A DNA stretch of 16,450 nucleotides. Origin: Burkholderiales bacterium (GTDB lineage Bacteria; Pseudomonadota; Gammaproteobacteria; Burkholderiales; Burkholderiaceae_D). The stretch spans positions 1 through 16,450 of the forward strand of contig SYFN01000006.1 of NCBI GenBank assembly GCA_005800405.1. The letters run 5' to 3'. Below are positions 3,289 to 16,450 of the stretch, one piece after another. The notes beneath the pieces are model-generated. The model did not search any database. It worked only from the letters and a program-made list of their open reading frames with translations, and had not been told where the DNA came from. The translations under genes and the position numbers were made by a program. Numbering within the stretch: the stretch's first letter is position 1; each line of letters opens with the position of its first letter.

Positions 3289-4527
3289 TTAATCAGGATA
3301 GCTCTCCTCGTTTTCTTTCATGCTCATGAAATAAGCTGGCCATTCACGAATCGGGGAGTCAGCGGGCTCAAGGCGAAATCCCGAATGCATGAATCGATAT
3401 CCAAGATCTGTATGATTTTTTCGTTTATCCGGTACCAGCGATAGGGATGGCACTATCCACGCGTGCCCAAGTGCGACCCCGGTCGTCGGCTGAATTTTAA
3501 TTTCACCGAAATCAATCGCATCTTTCAGAGTCGCGCTCGCTAGTTGCTTGAAATCCTGCCCGCTACTCGATGGAACGTTGGTATAAATTTGTGCTATCGC
3601 AGCAGATAGTTGTTGATGTTGCGTACGCGTGAGTTTATCGGGAGGTACAGCAATGCCGGATAGCTTTTGCGTAAGCAGTAGTTCAAGAACATCGCGCAAC
3701 AATTCGGCGAACAGATTCCCTTTAGTATCGGCCATGACGGCTTCGGCCATTCGACTATCAATGTAAATTGATTTTTGACCAGCAGTTACCTTCGTCGAGT
3801 TTATCTTCAGTATATCAGTGATAATTTCATACGAGGTAATCGAAAAATTTAATGCTTTTGTGAAAATCAAGACGCTGTGACGCAGATCATCTATGGTTTT
3901 GTTGGTCTGATTCCAATCGCGTACGCTCGAATGCAAGGCGTCGGGCACAGCGACTGAAAAGTCGGACGGTAGAAAATTTGTTCCGCACTTTTGAATATTG
4001 GTTTTCATATCCTCAAGTAAATTGAAAAAATCTGTCGTTTGCATCAGCGTACGATGGAATGCATGCGGCGGACCATTGGAAAAACGATGATCACAGTATA
4101 CCTCATCATCAATCACCGTTTCGACGACATTGCAGGAAAATTGTGCAGCCTTTAGCGCATCACGAAGCTGTGCAATCTCGTCATCTGTCAAATATGACAA
4201 ATGTATGCGTAGCAGCCCGATGAAATATTGTCGACTTCGTGCATCGTCATCGATACCCGGGCGAATGGATGCGAGCAGGTTATCCATATTCAGACATAAA
4301 AAATCCCTTGTGCGGCGGTACTGTACGGACTCTTTGGGTTCTTTAAGCTGTGACAGCAAAAGGCGGAAAGACAATGAGGTGTGCCGGCTGGATTCAAAAT
4401 AATACGAAGCCCTGTGCTGACGATGATAGAGCTGCGGTGCTCGTCCGGAGGTTACCGTAGATTGTTGGGTTACTTGCACAGAGCGATTTCGTGGAGGTGA
4501 CAGTGAACGGTTGAGCAGCGCGTACAT
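3289..4527 (-). CDS. Hypothetical 412-aa protein, effector-like (possibly 3'-truncated)
   Basis: No family is recognised. The first 60 residues or so are polar and low in acidic residues (Ser, Thr, Gln and Arg rich, for example RSVQVTQQSTVTSG). The rest looks mostly helical and soluble, with no signal peptide or transmembrane segment. Such an N-terminus is compatible with a type III or other secreted effector, but no secretion genes are visible. The start is well supported by AAAGGA seven bases before the ATG. Base composition looks lower in GC than flanking genes. The frame continues after the stop into the 95-aa ORF, so this may be a broken gene. It is divergent from the 275-aa gene, suggesting the two arrived as a unit. 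Confidence 0.65.
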   Translation of the reverse strand: MYALLNRSLSPPRNRSVQVTQQSTVTSGRAPQLYHRQHRASYYFESSRHTSLSFRLLLSQLKEPKESVQYRRTRDFLCLNMDNLLASIRPGIDDDARSRQYFIGLLRIHLSYLTDDEIAQLRDALKAAQFSCNVVETVIDDEVYCDHRFSNGPPHAFHRTLMQTTDFFNLLEDMKTNIQKCGTNFLPSDFSVAVPDALHSSVRDWNQTNKTIDDLRHSVLIFTKALNFSITSYEIITDILKINSTKVTAGQKSIYIDSRMAEAVMADTKGNLFAELLRDVLELLLTQKLSGIAVPPDKLTRTQHQQLSAAIAQIYTNVPSSSGQDFKQLASATLKDAIDFGEIKIQPTTGVALGHAWIVPSLSLVPDKRKNHTDLGYRFMHSGFRLEPADSPIREWPAYFMSMKENEESYPD

Positions 4528-4827: not shown

Positions 4828-5655
4828 ATGAGAACAACCAAGATCCCGCTGACCCAGGATCACAGCATCCCAACAACCGATAGTCGCACGGTAAACGACG
4901 CGAGCTTATTCATATCTTCAAGCAAGCCCACGATGTCATCAAAACAAAAAATAGCGACACCCTCAACCATTGTGAATGCCGGACCTGGGGCAAGATGCAA
5001 GTTTTCGTCATTGACACCCTACGGAGAGAAACTCGATGAGCTGGCCGCCCATGCCTTACCTGCGATACTGGGTGTGGGTGATATGGCATCAAATACACCC
5101 GGGTCCATTATCCGAGCGCTGCTGGAACAAGCGATCGCTACCCCTTTGCGCACGAAGGATATCCGGACCCTGCCATCAACATGGTCTGTGGCGTTGATCA
5201 GCGACGCCATGGTGATTGCATGGGCAAGCCAACTTGTCGCAGCCTGCGATCATGTCTGTAACGAGCGCGGTATGCAAGCCTACATCGAGGCCGTAACGGA
5301 TTTGATTTTCGATGAAGGCAATATTGAAGGAGGTCTACCCAGTGGCATCCGGGATTTTTGCGCGATGCTCACTAAAAAAGCACTTGAGGTCGGTATCACA
5401 CAGGGATTGGATCGTCGATCCCTGCAAGGCTTGCGCAACACCGTGATCATTCGATTTCTGATGGGTAGCGTATTTGTTCCCCATTTGCGGCCCACCGCCA
5501 TGCGGGAATCAACGAGTGATGCGATGCTTTATGCATTTGATCGTCAGCTATTCAGGCGGTTTTGTCATAAAACAACGGAGATCATTGATATTGATGCAGA
5601 GGCGATCGCGCTGCTGGCATTGGCGCGTAAGTTGAAGCAATCAGCTGTTACCTGA
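4828..5655 (+). CDS. Hypothetical 275-aa protein with RasGAP-like residue pattern
   Basis: No family is identified with certainty. Residues 1-55 are Ser/Thr-rich and probably disordered, as in many secreted effectors. Residues about 80-250 look helical. Two segments recall RasGAP domains. TLPSTWSVA (114-122) lines up with the finger-loop pattern TLFRGNSLA, with Ser117 where the catalytic arginine would be. IRFLMGSVFVP (208-218) has the spacing of LRFINPAIVSP, keeping Arg209, Phe210 and Pro218. Between them YIEAVTDLI matches the usual Tyr-Leu helix. If real, the protein would be a GTPase-binding domain without arginine-finger catalysis. The ATG has no clear Shine-Dalgarno, and a TGA lies two codons upstream. 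A chance match remains quite possible. Confidence 0.6.
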   Translation: MRTTKIPLTQDHSIPTTDSRTVNDASLFISSSKPTMSSKQKIATPSTIVNAGPGARCKFSSLTPYGEKLDELAAHALPAILGVGDMASNTPGSIIRALLEQAIATPLRTKDIRTLPSTWSVALISDAMVIAWASQLVAACDHVCNERGMQAYIEAVTDLIFDEGNIEGGLPSGIRDFCAMLTKKALEVGITQGLDRRSLQGLRNTVIIRFLMGSVFVPHLRPTAMRESTSDAMLYAFDRQLFRRFCHKTTEIIDIDAEAIALLALARKLKQSAVT

Positions 5656-5805: not shown

Positions 5806-7059
5806 TCACTGATAACTGCGTGCATCCTCAATAACTTTACCGTCATTGGGCAGCGTGCCGGTAGCGACCAACCTGACATCACCACGCAACTTGGTAATGT
5901 CGCGTATGGAGGCTGCAATGGTTTCGATCTCGCTCAAGAGCGTGGCAGGATCCGCCACTTCACAGTGCAAGGTCATCTGGTCATTTGCCATTTCGCCCGT
6001 GATGACCAGGCGAGCTTTAAGAATACCCCTATGGCGGCGCGCAATCTCTGCAACTTGTGAGGGATGTACGAACATTGCGCGAACTTTGGTGGTCTGATCC
6101 GCACGACCCATCCAGCCTTTGATGCGCGTGTTAGTTCTGCCGCACGGCGAAGCCTCTGGCAAGACTGCGGACAAATCGCCCGTCGCAAAGCGAATCAGTG
6201 GATAGTCTGGATTGAATGAGGTAATCACGATTTCTCCGACTTCGCCTATCGACACGGTATCGCCCGTACCCGGTCTTACGATTTCCAGTAACAGCGTCTC
6301 ATCAAGCACCATACCGGGGTTGACTTCGCCGCCCGTCATCGTTTCAAACGCAATATTGCCGATGTCAGCCGATCCGTAGGTTTGCAGCACATTCGGCACG
6401 CCTTTCGTATTGAGCCACTGGCGCAGGGAGGGTGGCAACGCCTCGGCGCTCACCAGCGCGTATTCAACACTGCGTATGTCTTCACCCATCTCCTGCGCTT
6501 TCTCGATGATGATCTTCAGAAAGGATGGTGTCCCTGTGTAGACGCGGGGCCGCAGCAAACTCATTGCCTGTACTTGCATTTCTGTTTGTCCGGTACCGGC
6601 TGGTATCACCGGGCAGCCAAGCCTGATCGCGCCGCCTTCGACCATCAGTCCGGCCGGTGTGAAATGGTAAGCAAAGCAATTCTGTATGAGATCCCCACGC
6701 CTGACACCTAGGGCATGCAGAGGACGCGCGAAGCGCCACCAGTCAACCCCACGCCCTTCAGGATCGAAAATGGGGCCGGGTGACATGAAGACACGCGACA
6801 AATCACGGGTCGACGTGTTGACGAGACCACCAAAGGGCGGTGCCATGCTTTGCAATGTTTTCAGTTCAGATTTGCGTGTCACTGGCAGTTGCGCTAGGGC
6901 CTCGCGGGAGCTGATATCCGGGGCATTTACCCTGGCGAGAATAGATGACCAGCCGGCAGTTTTTTGCGCGCATTGTATCAGCTCAGGCAATGCGGCCAGC
7001 AGTTCTTTTTCGCGCGTATGGGGATCGCGCGATTCGAGCGCGTCATGGAAATCAGTCAT
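5806..7059 (-). CDS. PaaK-like AMP-binding protein (phenylacetate-CoA ligase family)
   Basis: This 417-aa protein has the layout of phenylacetate-CoA ligases, which activate a carboxylic acid with ATP and transfer it to CoA. Visible core motifs are YTGTPSFL (174-181), LQTYGSADIGN (225-235) with the aromatic-Gly-Ser adenine-contact motif, and LIRFATGDLS (288-297). The C-terminus ends in LPNDGKVIEDARSYQ (403-417), with a Lys after Asp-Gly at the position of the catalytic lysine. The usual Ser/Thr/Gly-rich phosphate loop is replaced by FMSPGPIFDPEG (91-102), so the subgroup is atypical. It lies 21 bp after livF with no clear Shine-Dalgarno and is likely the last gene of the transporter operon. 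The substrate is unknown. Confidence 0.83.
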   Translation of the reverse strand: MTDFHDALESRDPHTREKELLAALPELIQCAQKTAGWSSILARVNAPDISSREALAQLPVTRKSELKTLQSMAPPFGGLVNTSTRDLSRVFMSPGPIFDPEGRGVDWWRFARPLHALGVRRGDLIQNCFAYHFTPAGLMVEGGAIRLGCPVIPAGTGQTEMQVQAMSLLRPRVYTGTPSFLKIIIEKAQEMGEDIRSVEYALVSAEALPPSLRQWLNTKGVPNVLQTYGSADIGNIAFETMTGGEVNPGMVLDETLLLEIVRPGTGDTVSIGEVGEIVITSFNPDYPLIRFATGDLSAVLPEASPCGRTNTRIKGWMGRADQTTKVRAMFVHPSQVAEIARRHRGILKARLVITGEMANDQMTLHCEVADPATLLSEIETIAASIRDITKLRGDVRLVATGTLPNDGKVIEDARSYQ

Positions 7060-7080
7060 GGCAAGTATCGGAGAAGGGAA

Positions 7081-7893
7081 TCAGGCCAGCCAGCGTTTGC
7101 GGCGGCGATAAAATTTCATGTCACGGAAACTCTTGCGATCACCACCGGACACGCCAAGATAAAATTCTTTTACGTCTTCATTCGAAGCCAGATCGGCTGC
7201 AGCACCTTCCATGACCACCCGACCATTTTCAAGAATATAACCAAAGTCCGCATAGCGCAGCGCAATGGTGGTGTTCTGTTCGGCGAGCAGAAAGGAAACC
7301 TGCTCGTTTTTATTGAGATCTTGAACGATACCGAAAATTTCTTCGACAATTTGTGGCGCGAGCCCCATTGAGGGCTCATCGAGCAGAATCATGGATGGTT
7401 TGGCCATCAGTGCGCGGCCAATCGCGCACATCTGTTGTTCACCGCCTGAGGTATAGCCGGCCATCGAGCTGCGGCGCTGCTTCAAGCGTGGAAAGTAGTG
7501 ATAGACCTTCTCAAGCTCATTTTTCAGATCATTACGAGAAATCTTCCGTGTATAAGCGCCGGTCAGTAGATTTTCTTCTATCGTCAGGTGACCAAAGCAA
7601 TGGCGGCCTTCCATCACTTGCGACAAACCACGCCTGACCAGTTCATTGGGCGTCAGCTGATCGATACGTTCGCCATTGAATTCAATACTACCCTTGGTCA
7701 CATCGCCACGCTCACCACGCAAAAGCGTCGAGATGGATTTGAGTGTGGTCGATTTACCCGCGCCATTTGCTCCCATCAGCGCCACGATTTTTCCACGGGG
7801 TACCGACAAAGATACGCCTTTGAGTACAAGGATAACGTGGTCATAAATGATCTCGATGTTATTAATGGTCAGGATGGGCGGGTTCTGGTTCAT
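7081..7893 (-). CDS. livF: Branched-chain-amino-acid-type ABC transporter ATPase, LivF-like
   Basis: The protein is 270 aa from the chosen ATG. It has Walker A GANGAGKST (41-49), signature TSGGEQQ (148-154), Walker B MILLDEP (168-174) and LLAEQN, with Gln206 at the switch position as usual in LivF proteins. A 20-residue basic C-terminal tail ends in RRRKRWLA. I chose the start at 7893 because GGA (7903-7905) sits nine bases upstream and the sequence MNQNPPILTI opens the domain. An ATG three codons earlier (7902) is also possible. A GTG at 7959 would place the terminator-like hairpin inside the coding region, so I reject it. It pairs with LivG to drive the LivH/LivM channel. Confidence 0.9.
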   Translation of the reverse strand: MNQNPPILTINNIEIIYDHVILVLKGVSLSVPRGKIVALMGANGAGKSTTLKSISTLLRGERGDVTKGSIEFNGERIDQLTPNELVRRGLSQVMEGRHCFGHLTIEENLLTGAYTRKISRNDLKNELEKVYHYFPRLKQRRSSMAGYTSGGEQQMCAIGRALMAKPSMILLDEPSMGLAPQIVEEIFGIVQDLNKNEQVSFLLAEQNTTIALRYADFGYILENGRVVMEGAAADLASNEDVKEFYLGVSGGDRKSFRDMKFYRRRKRWLA

Positions 7894-7902
7894 ATTGGCC
7901 AT

Positions 7903-7905
7903 TCC
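7903..7905 (-). promoter_or_regulatory. Ribosome binding site deciding the livF start
   Basis: GGA on the minus strand, nine bases before the ATG at 7893. It favours that start over the GTG at 7959. Confidence 0.4.
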
Positions 7906-7915
7906 ATTGGTCTGC

Positions 7916-7951
7916 AAAAACCACAGGACCCCGGCCTGTGCCGAAGTCCTG
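7916..7951 (-). terminator. Intrinsic terminator or attenuator between the binding-protein gene and livF
   Basis: On the minus strand CAGGACTTCGGC pairs with GCCGGGGTCCTG to give a 12-bp stem (two U-G pairs) closed by the tetraloop ACAG. It is followed by TGG and five T residues. This has the shape of a rho-independent terminator, though the T-tract is short. It lies about 50 bp after the substrate-binding protein stop and just ahead of livF. It may set the higher binding-protein to ATPase ratio common in ABC operons by letting only part of the transcripts pass. Confidence 0.7.
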
Positions 7952-8000
7952 CGATCCACAACGTAGGGTCTTCGTTAAAAAGCTTCTGCTGCTGAATCAA

Positions 8001-9302
8001 TTATTTGAGACAAGCTGCCTTGATGTTTTTTTCTTTGGCATAATTTGCCGATGTCTCTTCAAGCAGCCGGCGCACCAATACTTTGTCACCGGTAATCCAG
8101 GTATTTGATAACGGAATCCACTTGCTCCCGTCCCATTGCTGCACCTTGGTGGCGCCCGAGCCTTCGTGATCATCACAAGAAGTTTTCACGGGCGGGAACA
8201 GATCAGCGACACCGAGCGCTTTCTGACGTGCAGCATCGACATTCAGATTCTCTAAGCCCCAGCGGACCTGCTCACCGGTCAGCACTTTGCCCTTGCCAAA
8301 TTTGGCTTGGGCATTGCGCATAGCTTCCACCATCAATACACCTGCCACAACGCCGCGCAGATACATCGTGTGACCCACGCGATTCTTCTCGGCCAGATTA
8401 CCTTTGCCAGCGCCGTACACCGTGCCGCGAATTTCATCAAGCAGCGGATAGTTACCTGGTGTGGTGAAGCTCATTGTCGTAAAGCCTTTGGCCGCATCAC
8501 CTGCGGGCACGGCGTCCTCTTCAGCACCTGCCCACCAGACACCCAGCATTTTTTCACGCGGGAAGCCATTGCGCTGCGCTGTCTTCAGCGACACGGCGCT
8601 CATCACACCGTAGGTCCAGACGATCACGAAGTCGGGTTGTACCTGACGAATCTGCAGCCACTGCGACTGCTGATCATTGCCCGGTGGCTGGACTGGAATT
8701 TTGATCAATTCAAAACCGTATTTGGCGGCCTCTGCTTCCAGTACCGGCAGCGGCTCTTTACCGTAAGCGGAGTCGTGATACAGATGGACAATTTTCTTGC
8801 CTTTGAGTTTGTCCATACCCCCCATTTTGTCGCCGAGATAATGCACCATCGCAGCGGCCTGATTCCAGTAGCTGGTGATCAGTGGAAATACGTACGGGAA
8901 AACCTTGCCGTTCGCGGCATCGGAGCGGCCATAGCCCAGCGTCGTCATCGGGATTTTGTCTGTGCCAACGCGATCAAGGATGCCGTAGGCGATACCTGTG
9001 GAAAGCGGCTCAACCAGCGAAGCGCCACCGTTCTTGCTCTTGAGACGCTCATAACATTCCACACCCCGCGAGGCGTTGTACTCGGTCTCGCACTCTTCCC
9101 AGATCAACTTGACGCCATTGATCCCGTTGTCACGCATATTGATCAGGGTCATGTAGTCGATGATGCCGCCGTAGAAACCGCTGCCGCCAGCGGCATAAGG
9201 GCCTACACGGTAAGACAGCATGGGTATGAATTGCTGGGCCATTGCAGTGCTGGCAGCGGCCAGCAGTAAGACGCTTGCCAAGAGTGATTTCAGTAACTTC
9301 AT
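8001..9302 (-). CDS. ABC transporter periplasmic substrate-binding protein (Leu/Ile/Val-type family)
   Basis: The protein is 433 aa from the ATG at 9302, preceded by a strong GGAGGAG (9306-9312); a start four codons further up is less likely. Residues 1-22 (MKLLKSLLASVLLLAAASTA plus MA) form a clear signal peptide with cleavage expected after AMA. The mature part has the type I periplasmic binding protein layout, including IIDYMTLINMRDNGINGVK, LYHDSAYGKEPLPVLEAEA and PDFVIVWTYGVMSAVSLKTA. It is longer than classical LivJ (about 345 aa), as in homologues found with acyl- or aryl-CoA ligase genes. The ligand is therefore probably not leucine, but cannot be read from sequence. It lies 39 bp after livM, in the operon. 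Confidence 0.9.
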   Translation of the reverse strand: MKLLKSLLASVLLLAAASTAMAQQFIPMLSYRVGPYAAGGSGFYGGIIDYMTLINMRDNGINGVKLIWEECETEYNASRGVECYERLKSKNGGASLVEPLSTGIAYGILDRVGTDKIPMTTLGYGRSDAANGKVFPYVFPLITSYWNQAAAMVHYLGDKMGGMDKLKGKKIVHLYHDSAYGKEPLPVLEAEAAKYGFELIKIPVQPPGNDQQSQWLQIRQVQPDFVIVWTYGVMSAVSLKTAQRNGFPREKMLGVWWAGAEEDAVPAGDAAKGFTTMSFTTPGNYPLLDEIRGTVYGAGKGNLAEKNRVGHTMYLRGVVAGVLMVEAMRNAQAKFGKGKVLTGEQVRWGLENLNVDAARQKALGVADLFPPVKTSCDDHEGSGATKVQQWDGSKWIPLSNTWITGDKVLVRRLLEETSANYAKEKNIKAACLK

Positions 9303-9305
9303 AGT

Positions 9306-9312
9306 CTCCTCC
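9306..9312 (-). promoter_or_regulatory. Ribosome binding site of the binding-protein gene
   Basis: GGAGGAG on the minus strand, three bases before the ATG at 9302. It is the strongest Shine-Dalgarno in the operon, in line with high demand for the periplasmic protein. Confidence 0.6.
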
Positions 9313-9341
9313 ACAAAAATTAATCGGTATGACGAAGATAG

Positions 9342-10400
9342 CTAGTGCGGGAAAGGCCAGAGCCTCAGTTTTTCTTTGGTGATTTGCCACAGCCGGGCAA
9401 GGCCATGCGGCTCGACGATCAGGAAGAAGATGATCAGAGCACCAAAGACCATCAATTCCAGATTGGATGCCACCGCAGTCGAAATGCCAAGCGCGTGTGC
9501 CAGCATATTCAGAACGGTGGGCAGCAGGACAATAAAAGCAGCACCTAGAAATGAACCCATCACAGATCCGAGTCCGCCAATAATCACCATGAACAGAATA
9601 CGGAATGAGAGATCGAGGTTATACGCCTCAGGCTCTACCGTACCCAGATAGGCATAGGCATACAGGGCGCCGGCCACGCCGCAATAGAACGAGCTGATCG
9701 CAAATGCCAGCAGCTTGGTGTGCATCAGCCGTATGCCGATTACCTCGGCGGCCACATCCATATCCCGTACTGCCATCCAGCACCGGCCGATGTTGGAGCG
9801 CACGAGATTTTTTGCGAGCAGGGCGAGCAGAAACACAATTGCCAGCACCAGCAGGTATTTCGTCATGGGCGTGTCAAATACGAAGCCGAGTATCTCGAGC
9901 TTTTGTGCAGTGATGACCCCTGATGAACTGTAGTTGGTAAACCATTGCACCTTGGTCAGCGCCCAAACGACGAAAAACTGCGTCGCCAGCGTCGATGCGG
10001 CCAGATAAAATCCGCGCACACGCAAGGAGGGCAAGCCGAACACAATACCCAGCGCAGCGGCGCACAAGCCGCCCAAAGCAAACGCCAGCAGCAAAGGAAT
10101 GTCCAGCACGCGGAGCATGAAATTATACGAGGCAAATGCGCCCACGGCCATAAATGCTGCCGAGCCCAGCGAGAGTTGGCCAGCATAGCCAGTCAATATG
10201 TTCAAGCCCAGTGTTGCCAGCGAAAAAATCAGAAACGGAATCAGGATTGCTGAAAAAAGATACGGGGTCGCTACCAGAGGTACGACGAAAAAAGCCAGTG
10301 CAAGCAGGAGCAGCATGCCGATGCGGTCCTGACGAATCGGAAAAATCTGCCCATCAGCCTCGTAAGTCGTTTTGAATTGTCCTGCTTCACGGTACAGCAT
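9342..10400 (-). CDS. livM: Branched-chain-amino-acid-type ABC transporter permease, LivM-like
   Basis: This is a 352-aa inner-membrane permease. Hydrophobic helices start at about residue 28. Family motifs are LGLNILTGYAGQLSLGSAAF (64-83), LPSLRVRGFYLAASTLATQF (123-142) and the coupling region IGRCWMAVRDMDVAAEVIGI (204-223), followed by KLLAFAISSFYCGVAGALYA. A later FMVIIGGLGSVMGSFLGA segment is typical of LivM. The N-terminus carries about 27 cytoplasmic residues before the first helix. AGGGAG before the ATG supports the start. It should pair with LivH to form the channel. It sits 99 bp after livH and 39 bp before the binding protein. Confidence 0.92.
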   Translation of the reverse strand: MLYREAGQFKTTYEADGQIFPIRQDRIGMLLLLALAFFVVPLVATPYLFSAILIPFLIFSLATLGLNILTGYAGQLSLGSAAFMAVGAFASYNFMLRVLDIPLLLAFALGGLCAAALGIVFGLPSLRVRGFYLAASTLATQFFVVWALTKVQWFTNYSSSGVITAQKLEILGFVFDTPMTKYLLVLAIVFLLALLAKNLVRSNIGRCWMAVRDMDVAAEVIGIRLMHTKLLAFAISSFYCGVAGALYAYAYLGTVEPEAYNLDLSFRILFMVIIGGLGSVMGSFLGAAFIVLLPTVLNMLAHALGISTAVASNLELMVFGALIIFFLIVEPHGLARLWQITKEKLRLWPFPH

Positions 10401-10499
10401 AAAAACTCCCTGAATCCTTGTAGCGTCGATTGCAATATGCGATAGCCTCGTCAGGCCGACAGCAACTTCAATACTTGGCGGCGCTCCTCGTTCGGCGCT

Positions 10500-11399
10500 T
10501 CAAATCCTTCTGATAATTTTTTCACCGAACAAACCTTCAGGCCGAACCAGCAGGAAGCCCAGTGCAAGCACATAAGGGAACCAGCCCTCTATGCCGCCAC
10601 CGACAAAAGGTCCGATGTAGACTTCAGCAAGTTTTTCAGACGAGCCGATGATGAGTCCGCCAATGATGGCACCGGGCACTGAAGTAAATCCACCGAGAAT
10701 CAATACAGGGAGCGCTTTGAGCGCCACGAAGCTCAGCGAAAACTGCACACCATTGCGCGATCCCCACAGCAAGCCCGCGACCAGCGCCACAAATCCCGCT
10801 ACCCCCCAGACAATGCCCCAGATCTGCTGCAAAGGAATCCCGACGGCAAGTGCCGCCTGATGATCGTCTGCCACCGCACGAAGCGCGCGACCGACCTTGG
10901 TGCGAGAGAAAAACAGCGCCAGTCCTGTCACCAGCAGCGCACAGATGGCAGCCGCCGTTACATCGAAGCGCGAGATCACGATGTTGAACACATTCATCAT
11001 GCTCTCCATCGGCACGTCCTCGATACCGAGATCCAGGCGTTTCACATCCGAGCCCCAAACCAGCTGCGCCATGCCTTCGATAAAAAATGTCAGGCCTATC
11101 GTCGCCATGAACAGCGAGATCTCCGGCTGATTAACCAGAGGCCTGAGAACAAAGCGTTCAATTGCCAGCCCCAGCAAGGCCATCACACCGATGGTTACAA
11201 GAATCGCAGTCCACAAAGGCAGACCCAATTCGGTGAGCGACACGCAGGTAAGTGCGGCAAAAAAAACCATTGAGCCCTGCGCGAAATTGAATACGCCCGA
11301 AGCCTTGTAAATCAGCACAAAGCCCAGCGCTACCAGCGCATACATGATCCCGGAGAGCAAACCACCGATCAGGACCTCAAAGAAAAAATTCAGATTCAT
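10500..11399 (-). CDS. livH: Branched-chain-amino-acid-type ABC transporter permease, LivH-like
   Basis: A 299-aa membrane permease with about eight hydrophobic segments. The LivH hallmarks are GLLSGIMYALVALGFVLIYK near the N-terminus, FNFAQGSMVFFAAL (37-50), the coupling helix VGRALRAVADDHQAALAVGI (169-188), and GGFTSVPGAIIGGLIIGSSE before the C-terminus. The final ALGFLLVRPEGLFGEKIIRR is also typical. AGGATC about ten bases upstream of the ATG serves as a moderate ribosome binding site. A 206-bp gap with a palindromic element separates it from livG, so this junction may have reduced or separately controlled expression. Confidence 0.92.
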   Translation of the reverse strand: MNLNFFFEVLIGGLLSGIMYALVALGFVLIYKASGVFNFAQGSMVFFAALTCVSLTELGLPLWTAILVTIGVMALLGLAIERFVLRPLVNQPEISLFMATIGLTFFIEGMAQLVWGSDVKRLDLGIEDVPMESMMNVFNIVISRFDVTAAAICALLVTGLALFFSRTKVGRALRAVADDHQAALAVGIPLQQIWGIVWGVAGFVALVAGLLWGSRNGVQFSLSFVALKALPVLILGGFTSVPGAIIGGLIIGSSEKLAEVYIGPFVGGGIEGWFPYVLALGFLLVRPEGLFGEKIIRRI

Positions 11400-11404
11400 G
11401 GGGG

Positions 11405-11556
11405 CAAGATCCTAAATACACGGTGTCCCGGACTGCGCCGGGATGACAGTTTTGGTGCTGATGCGTTTCGAAAGATCAATCGGGTGCAAGCCAATGCCAG
11501 TGCGTCGCACCAGATGCGGCGCGCCTGACCCGTTGGTCTGGCTTGCAAGCCAGACC
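11405..11556. repeat. Palindromic repeat-like element between livH and livG
   Basis: A hairpin (TCCCGG-ACTGCG-CCGGGA, 11426-11443, followed by TGACA) resembles the dispersed extragenic palindromes with a GTCATCCCGG... theme that are common in proteobacteria. A perfect 22-bp palindrome lies at 11535-11556 (left half GGTCTGGCTTG). The segment TGCAAGCCA occurs twice (about 11486 and 11544). Neither stem has a T-tract, so it is not a classical terminator. Only one copy is in this window, so being a repeat is an inference. Confidence 0.45.
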
Positions 11557-11605
11557 GCTGCCTGGAGGAGGAGCAGCATACTTGTCTCACTTGTCAGCAA
11601 GCGGT

Positions 11606-12403
11606 TCAATGGGCAACTCCAAGGTAAGCATTGATCACGTCCTGATTGTTGCGAACTTCATCCGGTGTCCCGTCGCCAATCTTTTTGCCGTAATCCAGTA
11701 CCACGACCCGGTCCGAGATATCCATGACTACACCCATGTCGTGCTCGATCAGTACGATGGTGGTACCAAATTGTTCATTCACATCGATTATGAAACGGCA
11801 CATATCTTGTTTTTCTTCTACGTTCATGCCAGCCATGGGTTCATCGAGCAAAAGAATTTGAGGCTCAGCGGCTAGTGCGCGACCCAATTCAACACGCTTT
11901 TGTAAGCCATACGGCAGACGTCCTACAGGTGTTTTGCGTATATGTTGTATTTCAAGAAAATCGATGACTTCTTCAACTTTAATGCGATGAGCATTTTCTT
12001 CGCGCCGAGCAGGTCCTACATACAGCGCTTGCATTAAGAAATTGGATTGCATTTTCAAATTACGGCCGGTCATGATGTTGTCGAGAACCGTCATGCCTTT
12101 AAACAGCGCAATATTTTGAAAGGTGCGGGCAATGCCACTTTCTGCCGCAGCATGAGTATTCATGTCACGCAGGTGCTGACCGCGATAAATGATTTCGCCC
12201 TGTTGCGGACGGTAGACACCATTAATCACATTCAGCATGGAGCTTTTGCCAGCACCATTGGGTCCGATGATGGCGCGGATTTCATGTTCGCGTATGTCGA
12301 ATGAAATATCCGTTAACGCTTTAACTCCACCGAACGACAATGAAATATCTCGTAAATCAAGGATGACATCGCCCGAGCGACGAGCAGCAGTAGTGGTATT
12401 CAT
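11606..12403 (-). CDS. livG: Branched-chain-amino-acid-type ABC transporter ATPase, LivG-like
   Basis: A 265-aa ATPase with Walker A GPNGAGKS (47-54), signature LPYGLQKRVELGRAL (163-177), Walker B ILLLDEP (183-189) and H-loop His221 in LIEHDMGVVMDIS. The LPYG form of the signature is a LivG trait. The C-terminal GDGTPDEVRNNQDVINAYLG tail is also family-typical. Its ATG overlaps the stop of the acyl-CoA synthetase gene (ATGA at 12400-12403 on the minus strand). This ties transport and acyl activation into one transcript and suggests translational coupling. Confidence 0.93.
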   Translation of the reverse strand: MNTTTAARRSGDVILDLRDISLSFGGVKALTDISFDIREHEIRAIIGPNGAGKSSMLNVINGVYRPQQGEIIYRGQHLRDMNTHAAAESGIARTFQNIALFKGMTVLDNIMTGRNLKMQSNFLMQALYVGPARREENAHRIKVEEVIDFLEIQHIRKTPVGRLPYGLQKRVELGRALAAEPQILLLDEPMAGMNVEEKQDMCRFIIDVNEQFGTTIVLIEHDMGVVMDISDRVVVLDYGKKIGDGTPDEVRNNQDVINAYLGVAH

Positions 12404-14361
12404 CAGGCAGCCTTGCGGGTGGCGCTAAAGATTTTGGCATTACGAATTTCCAGATCAGCGCTGATGATGCCTTGCCGCCCATCTTCGAATTTAACCTGTG
12501 TTTCTATGAACTGTCGTTCACGACCGTCGTATAACGCATCAATTAAAACAGCATATTTTTCGCTAATGAAGCGACGTCGTACTTTGCGTGTACGGGTAAG
12601 TTCATCATCGTCCGGATCAAGTTCTTTATGCAATATAAGAAAGCGATGCACTTGTGAGCCCGACAGCAGCGCATCATGCGCCAGATCGGCATTCACTTTT
12701 TCTACGCATTCACTAATGAGCTCGTACACTGCAGCTTGACTGGCAAGATCGCTATAGCCGCTATACGCCAGATTACGCCGTTCAGCCCAGTTGCCGACAG
12801 CTTCCATATCAATATTAATAAAGGCAGTACAGCTAGGGCGACTATCACCAAAAGCGACCGCTTCTTTGATAAAAGGGAAAAACTTTAATTTGTTTTCTAT
12901 GTACTTAGGAGCGAACAGCGTACCGTCTGCCATTTTGCCGACGTCTTTGGCGCGATCAATAATTTTGAGATGGCCATCATTATCAAAAAAGCCCGCATCT
13001 CCAGTGTGAAAATACCCTTGGCTATCAATAGCTTCGGCGGTGTCATCTGCTTTTTTGTAATAGCCCACCATGAGGCCCGGCGAACGTACTAATACTTCAC
13101 CACTATCAGTAATTTTTACTTCAACGCCAGCCATAGGCCGACCCACCGTGTCTAGTTTTACATCCCCCGAGCGCTGCATGCACACGGTGACGCAGGTCTC
13201 CGTCATGCCATAGAGCTGTTTAAGATTAATTCCTATAGAGCGGTAGAAGTCGAATAAGTCAGGGCCTATGGCTTCGCCACCGGTATACGCTACTTTAATG
13301 CGTGACATGCCGAGCACATTTTTCAATGGACCGTAAATTAATAAGTCACCAATGGCATACAAAACTTTGTCTATCAGGCTAACCGACTCTTTGCCATCGA
13401 GTAGCTTTAAACCGACGCGTCGTGCTAAGCGCATGAAGTAATGAAATAGCGATCGCTTGATCGCGCTGGCATCTTCTATACGTATCATGACTTGGGTCAG
13501 AATATTTTCATAGATGCGTGGCGGCCCGAAGTAATACGTGGGCCCAATTTCACGCAAATCACTGGCTACCGTGGCAGGGGATTCCGGACAGTTAAGACAA
13601 AAGCCAGCGATGTGGGACATCGCGTATGAATAAAGAAAATCGCCTACCCACGCCAGCGGCAGGTAGCACAACACTTCATCCTCTGCAGTTATGTGATCGA
13701 ACTCAATGAGCGTATGACCCGTAGCAATCATCGCGGCATGCGAGTGACACACGCCTTTAGGTTTGCCCGTTGTGCCAGAGGTGTACAGGATGACAGCGAT
13801 ATCGTGAGTATCACCTGCATCGATTTGTTGTTGAAAAAAATCGGGGTGATCTTGATCGTGTGCTTTGCCTAACGCTTGCAGGCTATCGCATGAATGTACA
13901 CCCGCTTGTGTGTAATTGCGCAGACCACGACCATCGTCAAACGCTATGTGCGATAGGCCAGAAATACTTTCGCGTATCTCGAGTAGCTTGTCGACTTGTT
14001 CCTGATTTTCAACGATAGCAAAATCAATTTCAGCATTTTCCAATACATAGGCCATGTCTGCTGCCGGAGCATCCTGATACAGGGGAACGGCAACGCCACC
14101 TAAGCACTGAGCAGCTGCCATCGCCCAATACAAACGAGGACGATTGTCACCAACCACGGCGAGATTCATGCCGCGTTTAAAACCCAGTGCCGCTAGCCCG
14201 CAGGCCAACAAACGAACGTGGGTTTCTACTTCTGCCCACGTACTTGTTTGCCAGATACCCAAATGTTTTTCGCGAAATGCAGGATGCATGGGTCGCTGTA
14301 ACCCGTGCTGCTGCAATAAGCGCGGAAACGTATCCGCTGCTTTTTTATTGGTCTCCACCAT
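12403..14361 (-). CDS. Long-chain-type acyl-CoA synthetase (AMP-dependent ligase)
   Basis: The protein is 652 aa from the ATG at 14361. It activates a carboxylate through an acyl-adenylate and transfers it to CoA. Visible motifs are the phosphate loop YTSGTTGKPKGV (193-204), YGMTET (384-389), HTGD (452-455) with Asp455 for ribose, DRAKDVGK (469-476), and the C-terminal lysine region TRTRKVRRRF (589-598). The length and the long C-terminal domain fit the fatty-acyl or bulky-substrate subfamily rather than acetyl-CoA synthetase. The start is set by AAGAAGG (14368-14374); an ORF extension to 14502 gives a poor N-terminus. It heads the operon and overlaps livG, so the imported ligand is probably a carboxylic acid activated after uptake. 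Confidence 0.88.
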   Translation of the reverse strand: MVETNKKAADTFPRLLQQHGLQRPMHPAFREKHLGIWQTSTWAEVETHVRLLACGLAALGFKRGMNLAVVGDNRPRLYWAMAAAQCLGGVAVPLYQDAPAADMAYVLENAEIDFAIVENQEQVDKLLEIRESISGLSHIAFDDGRGLRNYTQAGVHSCDSLQALGKAHDQDHPDFFQQQIDAGDTHDIAVILYTSGTTGKPKGVCHSHAAMIATGHTLIEFDHITAEDEVLCYLPLAWVGDFLYSYAMSHIAGFCLNCPESPATVASDLREIGPTYYFGPPRIYENILTQVMIRIEDASAIKRSLFHYFMRLARRVGLKLLDGKESVSLIDKVLYAIGDLLIYGPLKNVLGMSRIKVAYTGGEAIGPDLFDFYRSIGINLKQLYGMTETCVTVCMQRSGDVKLDTVGRPMAGVEVKITDSGEVLVRSPGLMVGYYKKADDTAEAIDSQGYFHTGDAGFFDNDGHLKIIDRAKDVGKMADGTLFAPKYIENKLKFFPFIKEAVAFGDSRPSCTAFINIDMEAVGNWAERRNLAYSGYSDLASQAAVYELISECVEKVNADLAHDALLSGSQVHRFLILHKELDPDDDELTRTRKVRRRFISEKYAVLIDALYDGRERQFIETQVKFEDGRQGIISADLEIRNAKIFSATRKAA

Positions 14362-14367
14362 GATCTG

Positions 14368-14374
14368 CCTTCTT
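14368..14374 (-). promoter_or_regulatory. Ribosome binding site deciding the acyl-CoA synthetase start
   Basis: AAGAAGG on the minus strand lies six bases before the ATG at 14361. It favours this start over an in-frame ATG at 14502, which lacks comparable support. Confidence 0.6.
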
Positions 14375-14496
14375 ATAGGTAGTAATTGCTGAGCGGGCTC
14401 GTCATTGTGGACGGACCAACTCTTATTTTTGCCTAATGATAACCAGCTTGAGCTTTTTATAAGTATGTTCTGATGCGTAAGGATCAAGTTTCTATG

Positions 14497-14516
14497 ATGC
14501 AATGCACAAATTGCAT
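14497..14516. promoter_or_regulatory. Inverted repeat, candidate operator
   Basis: ATGCAAT and ATTGCAT are perfect 7-bp arms around a 6-bp spacer (GCACAA). The size and position between two divergent genes fit a dimeric regulator site. The regulator is unknown, and no regulator gene lies in the window. Confidence 0.35.
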
Positions 14517-14747
14517 GTCAAGTGGGCCATACCAGTCTTGTTACTTCCTGGGTAAAGACCAGTAAAACGCGGCTCGAGGTTGAGCAAAGCGGGATAGAGA
14601 TCCGTATCTAGAAACTGGGATCTGAACTTTTAGGTCAACTGGAATGCGCCACTGATTATTCAGCCCATGCGGGCGTCATTTCTCAACCTGACAACTTGCT
14701 AGCGATATGCGAGCTTCATTTCCTCACGACGTGGATTTAGCGACCTG

Positions 14748-16450
14748 ATGCCCTTGCGTTTTTTAGGGGTTTCGCTGCGTTTTATTCTGCCACTGGCGCT
14801 GATTTTGGGTTTGTTTGCTTTGGCTTTATTGCCATTGGTAGATGAATTGACTCAGCGCTGGTTTTTGCGTGACCTAAAAACACGATCGCAGATGGTAGTT
14901 GCTGCATTGAGTGAGCCGGCAAGGGTGGCGTTGTTATCTCGGGATGCAGGATCAGTCAGGCTACCGTTTGAAAATGCACGACGAAACAGACAAGTACTTG
15001 CATTTGGATTGTGCGACACCAACGGACGACTTGTGTATCGCAGCGACCCGACACCAAGGACCTTGGATTGCCAGACCAAGACTGACTACGGCGTATTGGT
15101 GACTGAAACCGTCATTGAGCAGGACGGGATAATGCTGGGCAAACTTATACTCGCTCAAGACACCCGCTTCATGGAAAAACGCAGCACCGAATTCAGGCGC
15201 TATTTGATCATTGCATTTGTATTGATGTTCGTTGTGATATCCACGCTCAGTGCCTGGATAACGCATTGGAATTGGCTAAGTTGGGTAAGTTCATTAAAAA
15301 GTTTATTGAGCCGAGAAACAGGCAAGGCAATCAAGCAAGCTCCTCCTGAATTTAGGCCACTGGTAGGTGATTTGCGAGCGATGATCATAGAGATGAATCG
15401 TGAACGTCAATTGCAGAGGCAGTCACCGCAATCATGGACACCAGAAAAATTACGCTCACTTTTGCATAATGAATTAGCCGGGGATGAAATTATCGTGGTC
15501 TCCAATCGTGAACCCTATATTCATGAGCAAACTGAACAAGCGATAGTCTTGCGTCGACCAGCTAGCGGGTTAGTAACGGCTGTAGAGCCCGTCATGCGTG
15601 CTTGCTCAGGAACGTGGATAGCGCATGGTAGTGGTTCTGCAGATCGGGCAACGGTCGATGCAAATGATCATCTCCGTGTGCCTCCTAATCATCCGGAATA
15701 TACCTTGCGCAGAGTATGGTTGTCGGACGCAGAAGAGATGGGCTATTACTATGGATTTTCAAATGAAGGCCTGTGGCCCCTGTGTCATATGGCGCATGTA
15801 CGCCCCGTATTTCGTACCTCTGACTGGGAGCACTACGTAGCGATTAACTATCGTTTTGCAGAAGCCGTTATTACAGAGGCGCGCACAGATGATCCTATTA
15901 TTCTGATACAGGATTATCACTTTGCACTTTTGCCATGCATGATAAGAGAACGATTACCCAAAGCTACGCTTATCATGTTTTGGCACATACCGTGGCCGAA
16001 TCCGGAATCATTTGGAATTTGTCCGTGGAGGGAAGAAATTTTGCAGGGTTTTTTAGGTAATACCTTGCTGGATTTTCACACACCATTTCATTGTAAAAAT
16101 TTTTTAGAAACCATAGATCGTTATCTCGAAACACATATTGAATATGAAGCCTCAACTATTTCTTACGGCGGTGACTTGATCCAGGGTGAGCCTTATCCTA
16201 TTTCAATTGCCTGGCCAGAAAATGATAGGAGTATAGATTTAGTTCAGTACAGAAAAGCTTTCAGGCAAGAATTACATGTGCCAGATACGCATGCGCTTGC
16301 ACTGGGTGTGGACAGACTTGATTACACTAAACGCATACTGGAGCGGTTTCATGCGCTCGATAGACTATTTGAACTACATCCTGAACTAATAGGTAAATTT
16401 TCTTTACTGCAGATAGCAGCGCCTAGTCGATTCTCCTTAGGGGAATATCA
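14748..16450 (+). CDS. otsA: Membrane-anchored sensor-like module fused to trehalose-6-phosphate synthase (partial, 3' end outside window)
   Basis: The frame is open from the ATG to the window edge (567 codons). Residues 1-30 contain a transmembrane helix (FILPLALILGLFALALLPLV). About 30-150 form a predicted periplasmic domain. Residues 152-170 are a second helix, and 171-240 are a polar linker. From about residue 246 (DEIIVVSNREPY) the protein is a GT20 glycosyltransferase that makes trehalose-6-phosphate from UDP-glucose and glucose-6-phosphate. Visible motifs are YYYGFSNEGLWPLCH, Asp389 and His391 in IQDYH, His413 in HIPWPNPESFG, and GVDRLDYTK with Arg523 and Lys528. These match the substrate-binding residues of OtsA. 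An in-frame TAG at 14700-14702 and no other ATG fix the start. No strong Shine-Dalgarno is visible. Confidence 0.88.
   Translation, partial: MPLRFLGVSLRFILPLALILGLFALALLPLVDELTQRWFLRDLKTRSQMVVAALSEPARVALLSRDAGSVRLPFENARRNRQVLAFGLCDTNGRLVYRSDPTPRTLDCQTKTDYGVLVTETVIEQDGIMLGKLILAQDTRFMEKRSTEFRRYLIIAFVLMFVVISTLSAWITHWNWLSWVSSLKSLLSRETGKAIKQAPPEFRPLVGDLRAMIIEMNRERQLQRQSPQSWTPEKLRSLLHNELAGDEIIVVSNREPYIHEQTEQAIVLRRPASGLVTAVEPVMRACSGTWIAHGSGSADRATVDANDHLRVPPNHPEYTLRRVWLSDAEEMGYYYGFSNEGLWPLCHMAHVRPVFRTSDWEHYVAINYRFAEAVITEARTDDPIILIQDYHFALLPCMIRERLPKATLIMFWHIPWPNPESFGICPWREEILQGFLGNTLLDFHTPFHCKNFLETIDRYLETHIEYEASTISYGGDLIQGEPYPISIAWPENDRSIDLVQYRKAFRQELHVPDTHALALGVDRLDYTKRILERFHALDRLFELHPELIGKFSLLQIAAPSRFSLGEY

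Follow-up and report, generated by a model that had tools for sequence, protein, structure and literature searches.

Kinases, cyclases, diguanylate cyclases and chemoreceptors are known to carry sensor inputs, and OtsA, the trehalose-6-phosphate synthase of the GT20 glycosyltransferase family, functions elsewhere as a soluble enzyme. The described systems closest to the one considered here are soluble OtsA (from E. coli, PDB entry 1uqt, and from Mycobacterium thermoresistibile, entry 5jij; PMC11046441) and the input halves of sensor histidine kinases (the CusS/CopS type, TIGR01386, together with WalK, CitA and LuxQ). Here the analysis concerns a gene with likenesses to both, namely a membrane-OtsA gene at the end of contig SYFN01000006.1, which belongs to a Burkholderiales metagenome-assembled genome (MAG) that is 71% complete and which was analysed over its entire 16,450 bases (termed here the window).

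On balance the encoded protein is probably a transmembrane receptor-enzyme, in which an input of the sensor-kinase type is joined to a GT20 trehalose-6-phosphate synthase facing the cytoplasm. The input would consist of a first transmembrane helix (TM1), a PDC/Cache-like periplasmic domain containing an invariant pair of cysteines, a second helix (TM2) and a HAMP-like linker; the GT20 enzyme would take the position that a kinase core would otherwise occupy; a periplasmic ligand or a state of the envelope would, most likely, change the packing of the helices and, through it, the activity of the attached OtsA; and OtsB, encoded just downstream in most relatives, would complete trehalose. The orientation, the transmission and nature of the signal, and the direction of regulation are inferred. 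An extracellular signal may in this way switch trehalose production directly. The chances are about even that such proteins make up a class of receptor-enzymes so far overlooked, with a sensor-kinase input gating the first trehalose step directly and providing, in several phyla, a one-protein, transcription-independent link between a periplasmic signal and a compatible solute. A sensor input fused directly to an osmolyte-biosynthetic enzyme is unusual, and would put stress control on the enzyme itself.

The fused architecture and its distribution

The fusion, its two helices, its conservation, the predicted sensor-type fold and the linkage to otsB each come from computation. A first-pass annotation of the window had placed the start of the OtsA domain near residue 246, behind two helices enclosing a segment of about 120 residues, and both statements hold: Glyco_transf_20 (PF00982) spans residues 248-565 (E 4.9e-62; 210.6 bits against a curated cut-off of 32.5), and hydropathy gives two strong helices, TM2 included, with 121 residues between them (Table 1). 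Two N-terminal helices occur in 66 of 67 alignment rows (the window among them) and three in the other row. That first reading needs one correction, in that about 168 C-terminal codons fall beyond the window; a complete relative of 735 residues (P0001), 91% identical to the window protein, has the identical layout.

The glycosyltransferase domain is identical in kind to that of soluble OtsA. The best PDB match is 5jij (E 2.5e-77, residues 246-711 of the full-length relative), and N253, R254, G274, W290, W343, D389, H413, R523 and K528, which we take to have active-site-type roles at positions obtained by alignment to 5jij, are all present in the window copy; D622 (in 65 of 66 ungapped relatives) and E630 (66 of 66) lie beyond the window. 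Trehalose-6-phosphate synthase is the likely activity, as the nearby otsB supports: in 68 of 80 loci this gene lies downstream with the same orientation, at a distance of no more than about 0.4 kb in all but L087 (1.2 kb). A match to a GH15 glycosidase occurs in 47 of the 80, some of the loci being cut by contig ends and a few of the matches being partial. Among 21 genomes of the window's genus, 15 have GT20 and 14 otsB; the single one with GT20 but no otsB is that of the window, in which the contig breaks off within otsA. In contrast to the fused enzymes, which form a separate clade among the compared rows, 1uqt and 5jij lack any membrane or periplasmic part.

A search with residues 1-245 (the N-terminal module, termed here the N-module), which scored 7998 proteins, found 129 at E<=1e-3; of the 120 matches listed, 119 contain PF00982, the exception (P0005, 329 residues) lacking any Pfam domain. 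A Geobacteraceae query, with 8000 proteins scored, found 2672 at E<=0.01, and PF00982 is present in 120 of the 120 listed. Within a genome collection, the alignment starts no later than residue 29 in 79 of the best 80 of 581 confirmed relatives, L026 being the one that differs; this locus, L018 and L019 are probably contigs of the genus genomes. In a sample of 300 genomes of the order, the N-module occurs in 21 and GT20 over its cut-off in 46; the gap from module to GT20 is 54-63 bases, in frame, in all 21, and one genome (G059) carries both a fused and a soluble enzyme. In a phylum sample the module matched 5 of 398 genomes: the window's own, three more with the fusion, and G550, whose match is spurious (36 positions in a 148-residue frame, with no OtsA match). 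Relatives in the beta-proteobacteria had been anticipated and do exist, but that claim was too narrow, since the record titles of these relatives include not only Noviherbaspirillum, Janthinobacterium, Ramlibacter and Rhodocyclaceae but also Geobacteraceae, Smithella (Syntrophaceae), Nitrospira, Acidobacteria and Bdellovibrionota.

This distribution bears on whether the gene could be an artefact of a wrong start codon or of a frameshift joining two genes, as might be suspected of a gene cut at the contig end of an incomplete MAG, on a contig that looks mosaic. Residues 1-245 recur joined to PF00982 in other proteins, no frameshift or start error was found, and the identical fusion is present in well over a hundred other sequences, isolates included; because homologues share the fusion, this explanation is refuted for practical purposes, its chance of being right being minute.

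In a tree of 69 GT20 domains (the first rows of alignment A3 together with every second row of it), the 45 enzymes that are truly fused form one clade (100/99) beside the soluble L133 and L134, although some long-branch joins, including that of L133 and L134, were flagged as unsure. The fused count is 45 rather than 47, as L129 and L132 are soluble although automatically labelled as fused, which explains three reported label changes. Alignment A3 covers 48 of the 80 loci, L034 being left out because of a stop in its translation, and A2 covers 56. The soluble enzymes L133 (genome G288) and L134 (G076), sister to the fused clade, are 46-50% identical to P0001 and retain, by eye, a helix-like stretch directly before the enzyme.

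The fused family is large, conserved and overlooked, its component parts being of known kinds. Sources that name it call it plain trehalose-6-phosphate synthase, and a literature search of titles and abstract openings found no account of a membrane- or sensor-fused OtsA. Given this size, conservation and naming, assumptions appropriate to a soluble enzyme may fail for Geobacteraceae, Nitrospira, relatives of Janthinobacterium and others. GSU2337 of Geobacter sulfurreducens has been described, in passages that mention neither a membrane part nor regulation, as a trehalose-6-phosphate synthase that is paired with GSU2336 and 'containing a domain' with 37% identity to the enzyme of M. tuberculosis (PMC2700814). 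GSU2337 probably belongs to the fused family, since Geobacter anodireducens and G. grbiciae are among the sources of the fused relatives listed.

The N-terminal module compared with sensor kinases

The topology of a bacterial sensor, proposed in the first-pass annotation, is not only borne out but strengthened: the fold predicted for the module matches periplasmic sensor domains, and many family members align collinearly with the input half of a sensor-kinase profile. Osmotic stress, the envelope signal given there as an example, would be one candidate among others. Between the two transmembrane helices the structure model predicts a long helix, a further helix and antiparallel strands (residues 85-90, 95-98, 116-125 and 128-138 in the AlphaFold2 (AF2) model), an arrangement of the PDC/Cache-like type. 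A periplasmic position of the loop is presumed from this fold, from the two cysteines and from the fact that OtsA uses cytoplasmic substrates; counts of lysine and arginine flanking the helices leave the orientation undecided.

The order of parts (TM1, predicted PDC/Cache-like periplasmic domain, TM2, putative HAMP-like linker) is identical to that of the sensor histidine kinase inputs. In a comparison of ten hand-picked proteins, using their N-modules only, matches to TIGR01386 end at or before profile position 242 of 457. The output differs, in that the fused OtsA is a biosynthetic glycosyltransferase and no kinase core was found: in the window's reading frame PF00982 alone passes its cut-off, and neither HisKA nor HATPase does. 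Against a HAMP profile built from 13 of 14 matches (the one below the cut-off being omitted), the linker's profile scored above 200 of 200 column shuffles, at a probability of only 24%; PF00672, the Pfam HAMP profile, is absent among the 25 of 35 families listed for 57 N-modules, and the linker is not one of the HAMP matches in the window's own genome.

Pfam gave no family at E<=0.001 for the window copy of the N-module and no credibly supported family among the same 25 of 35 for the 57 N-modules. CHASE4 matched 4 of the 57. The commonest weak name, Adeno_E3B (30 members, best 0.00024), was judged a chance match to a transmembrane helix. SMP_2 (PF10144), tried because P0175 and P0183 are named 'membrane protein affecting hemolysin expression', a name that we assume to belong with this family, has no match in the window's own genome. 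A profile of the N-module compared with PDB by sequence gave nothing usable (best E 0.13).

Conservation, change and loss of the module

Outside the window's genus, all 57 rows have R82, 55 have H117 and 54 have H137; these are candidate residues for ligand binding or for sensing of a state by the sensor domain. Within the genus they are nearly gone: among ten rows assigned to it by similarity R82 occurs in none, H117 in one and H137 in none, and a recount over 12 full-length copies from genus genomes gives one, none and none. The window copy has Q82, L117 and Q137. Its clade thus lacks the conserved candidate pocket residues, and the window copy is therefore a poor place to seek the ancestral signal. 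The N-terminal half is nonetheless under purifying selection within the genus, with ratios of nonsynonymous to synonymous rates (dN/dS) of 0.108, 0.131, 0.065 and 0.242 for the four pairs with dS below 1.

Two sister genomes, G001 (locus L016, with L026 probably on the same contig) and G008 (L015), carry an OtsA without the membrane module. Remnants of approximately residues 22-66 abut codon 216, with junction letters identical in both genomes; they are weak in tblastn (E 0.27-6) and were read by eye, the multiple alignment not having placed them. By eye, too, the junction perhaps lies at a short repeat. The enzyme frame is open to its normal end, and between G001 and G008 dN/dS is 0.015 for the first part of the enzyme (4 versus 65 changes) and 0.121 for the rest (10 versus 21). 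That the enzyme is kept under purifying selection without the module argues that the module regulates or places the enzyme rather than supports catalysis, and the deletion provides a ready comparison of forms with and without it.

Placement could be all that there is: the N-module may be a mere membrane anchor for OtsA (and perhaps OtsB), its sensor-like fold inherited and exerting no gating. Both its dispensability in two genomes and the soluble forms among the compared enzymes fit such an anchor, which, however, would need neither a folded domain of about 120 residues with an invariant cysteine pair, nor three residues kept so widely outside the genus, nor a HAMP-like linker; we regard it as unlikely, though far from negligible.

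For the window copy itself, decay has to be weighed against a functioning receptor-enzyme: its sensor site would be lost and its enzyme half under relaxed selection, the gene being perhaps weakly functional or a pseudogene in the making. Over residues 251-567, outgroup polarisation assigns 15 nonsynonymous and 17 synonymous changes to the window branch versus 1 and 24 to its sister (Fisher p 0.0003), in a stretch picked after viewing the data; the window-branch changes include G529R, adjoining the invariant K528, and 6 of the 21 genus genomes have no GT20. In a neighbouring ligase gene the two branches are even, with 8 and 27 changes each. Over the whole gene, however, the contrast shrinks to 22/33 versus 11/33 (28/32 versus 15/33 with another outgroup set), and two of the changes lie within the last 20 bases of the contig, where they may be assembly errors. 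Moreover, stops and frameshifts are absent, the enzyme half still has a dN/dS of 0.063 to the sister, and the checked active-site-type residues are intact. Decay is given about one chance in four in our judgement; within the window's genus the control has probably been altered or relaxed, because the sensor site has changed and the module has been deleted in one branch.

Features of the window and its mosaic contig

Table 1. Coordinates of the membrane-OtsA gene and its parts in the window
Feature	Position	Strand	Basis or remark
Membrane-OtsA gene	14748..16448	+	567 codons, 3' end lost at contig end; full-length relative P0001
TM1, residues 13-31	14784..14840	+	hydropathy 2.74; AF2 model helix 3-64
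PDC/Cache-like sensor domain, residues 32-152, putatively periplasmic	14841..15203	+	AF2 strands; sensor-domain matches
Residues 80-82, N-R-Q in window copy, D-E-R in most family members	14985..14993	+	alignment
Cys89, invariant, possible disulfide with Cys108	15012..15014	+	67/67 alignment rows
Cys108, invariant	15069..15071	+	67/67 alignment rows
TM2, residues 153-171	15204..15260	+	hydropathy 2.63
HAMP-like linker, residues 176-224	15273..15419	+	profile comparison; low-confidence helix-gap-helix in full-length model
Linker helix preceding enzyme, residues 230-245	15435..15482	+	AF2 helix 232-244
GT20 / trehalose-6-phosphate synthase domain, incomplete	15489..16448	+	PF00982 profile positions 3-325 of 473

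Scans for promoters and terminators near the gene gave nothing beyond chance. Positions 11604-16450 align to genome G006 as one piece at 89.8% identity, versus 67-79% for the pieces left of the boundary, and guanine-plus-cytosine (GC) content is 0.469 to the right of 11604 versus 0.538 at 5806-11400, a step that G006, G003 and G008 lack. Thirteen other stretches of the MAG have a mean GC of 0.547 (0.516-0.566), and one of them matched G006, over 110 bases only, at 72%. From these steps in identity and GC it follows that the otsA end is either a recent transfer or derived from another population. The boundary is sharp, at 11400-11606, and points to a chimeric contig or a recent transfer. The architecture is unaffected, because it rests on many genomes.

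Elsewhere in the window, open reading frames of 412 and 275 residues (3289-4527, minus strand; 4828-5655, plus strand) have no obvious family by eye, no search having been made. By eye, positions 5806-14361 (minus strand) contain two genes for AMP-dependent ligase-like proteins together with an ABC transporter set of the branched-chain type; G006, G008 and G003 have counterparts of these in matching order.
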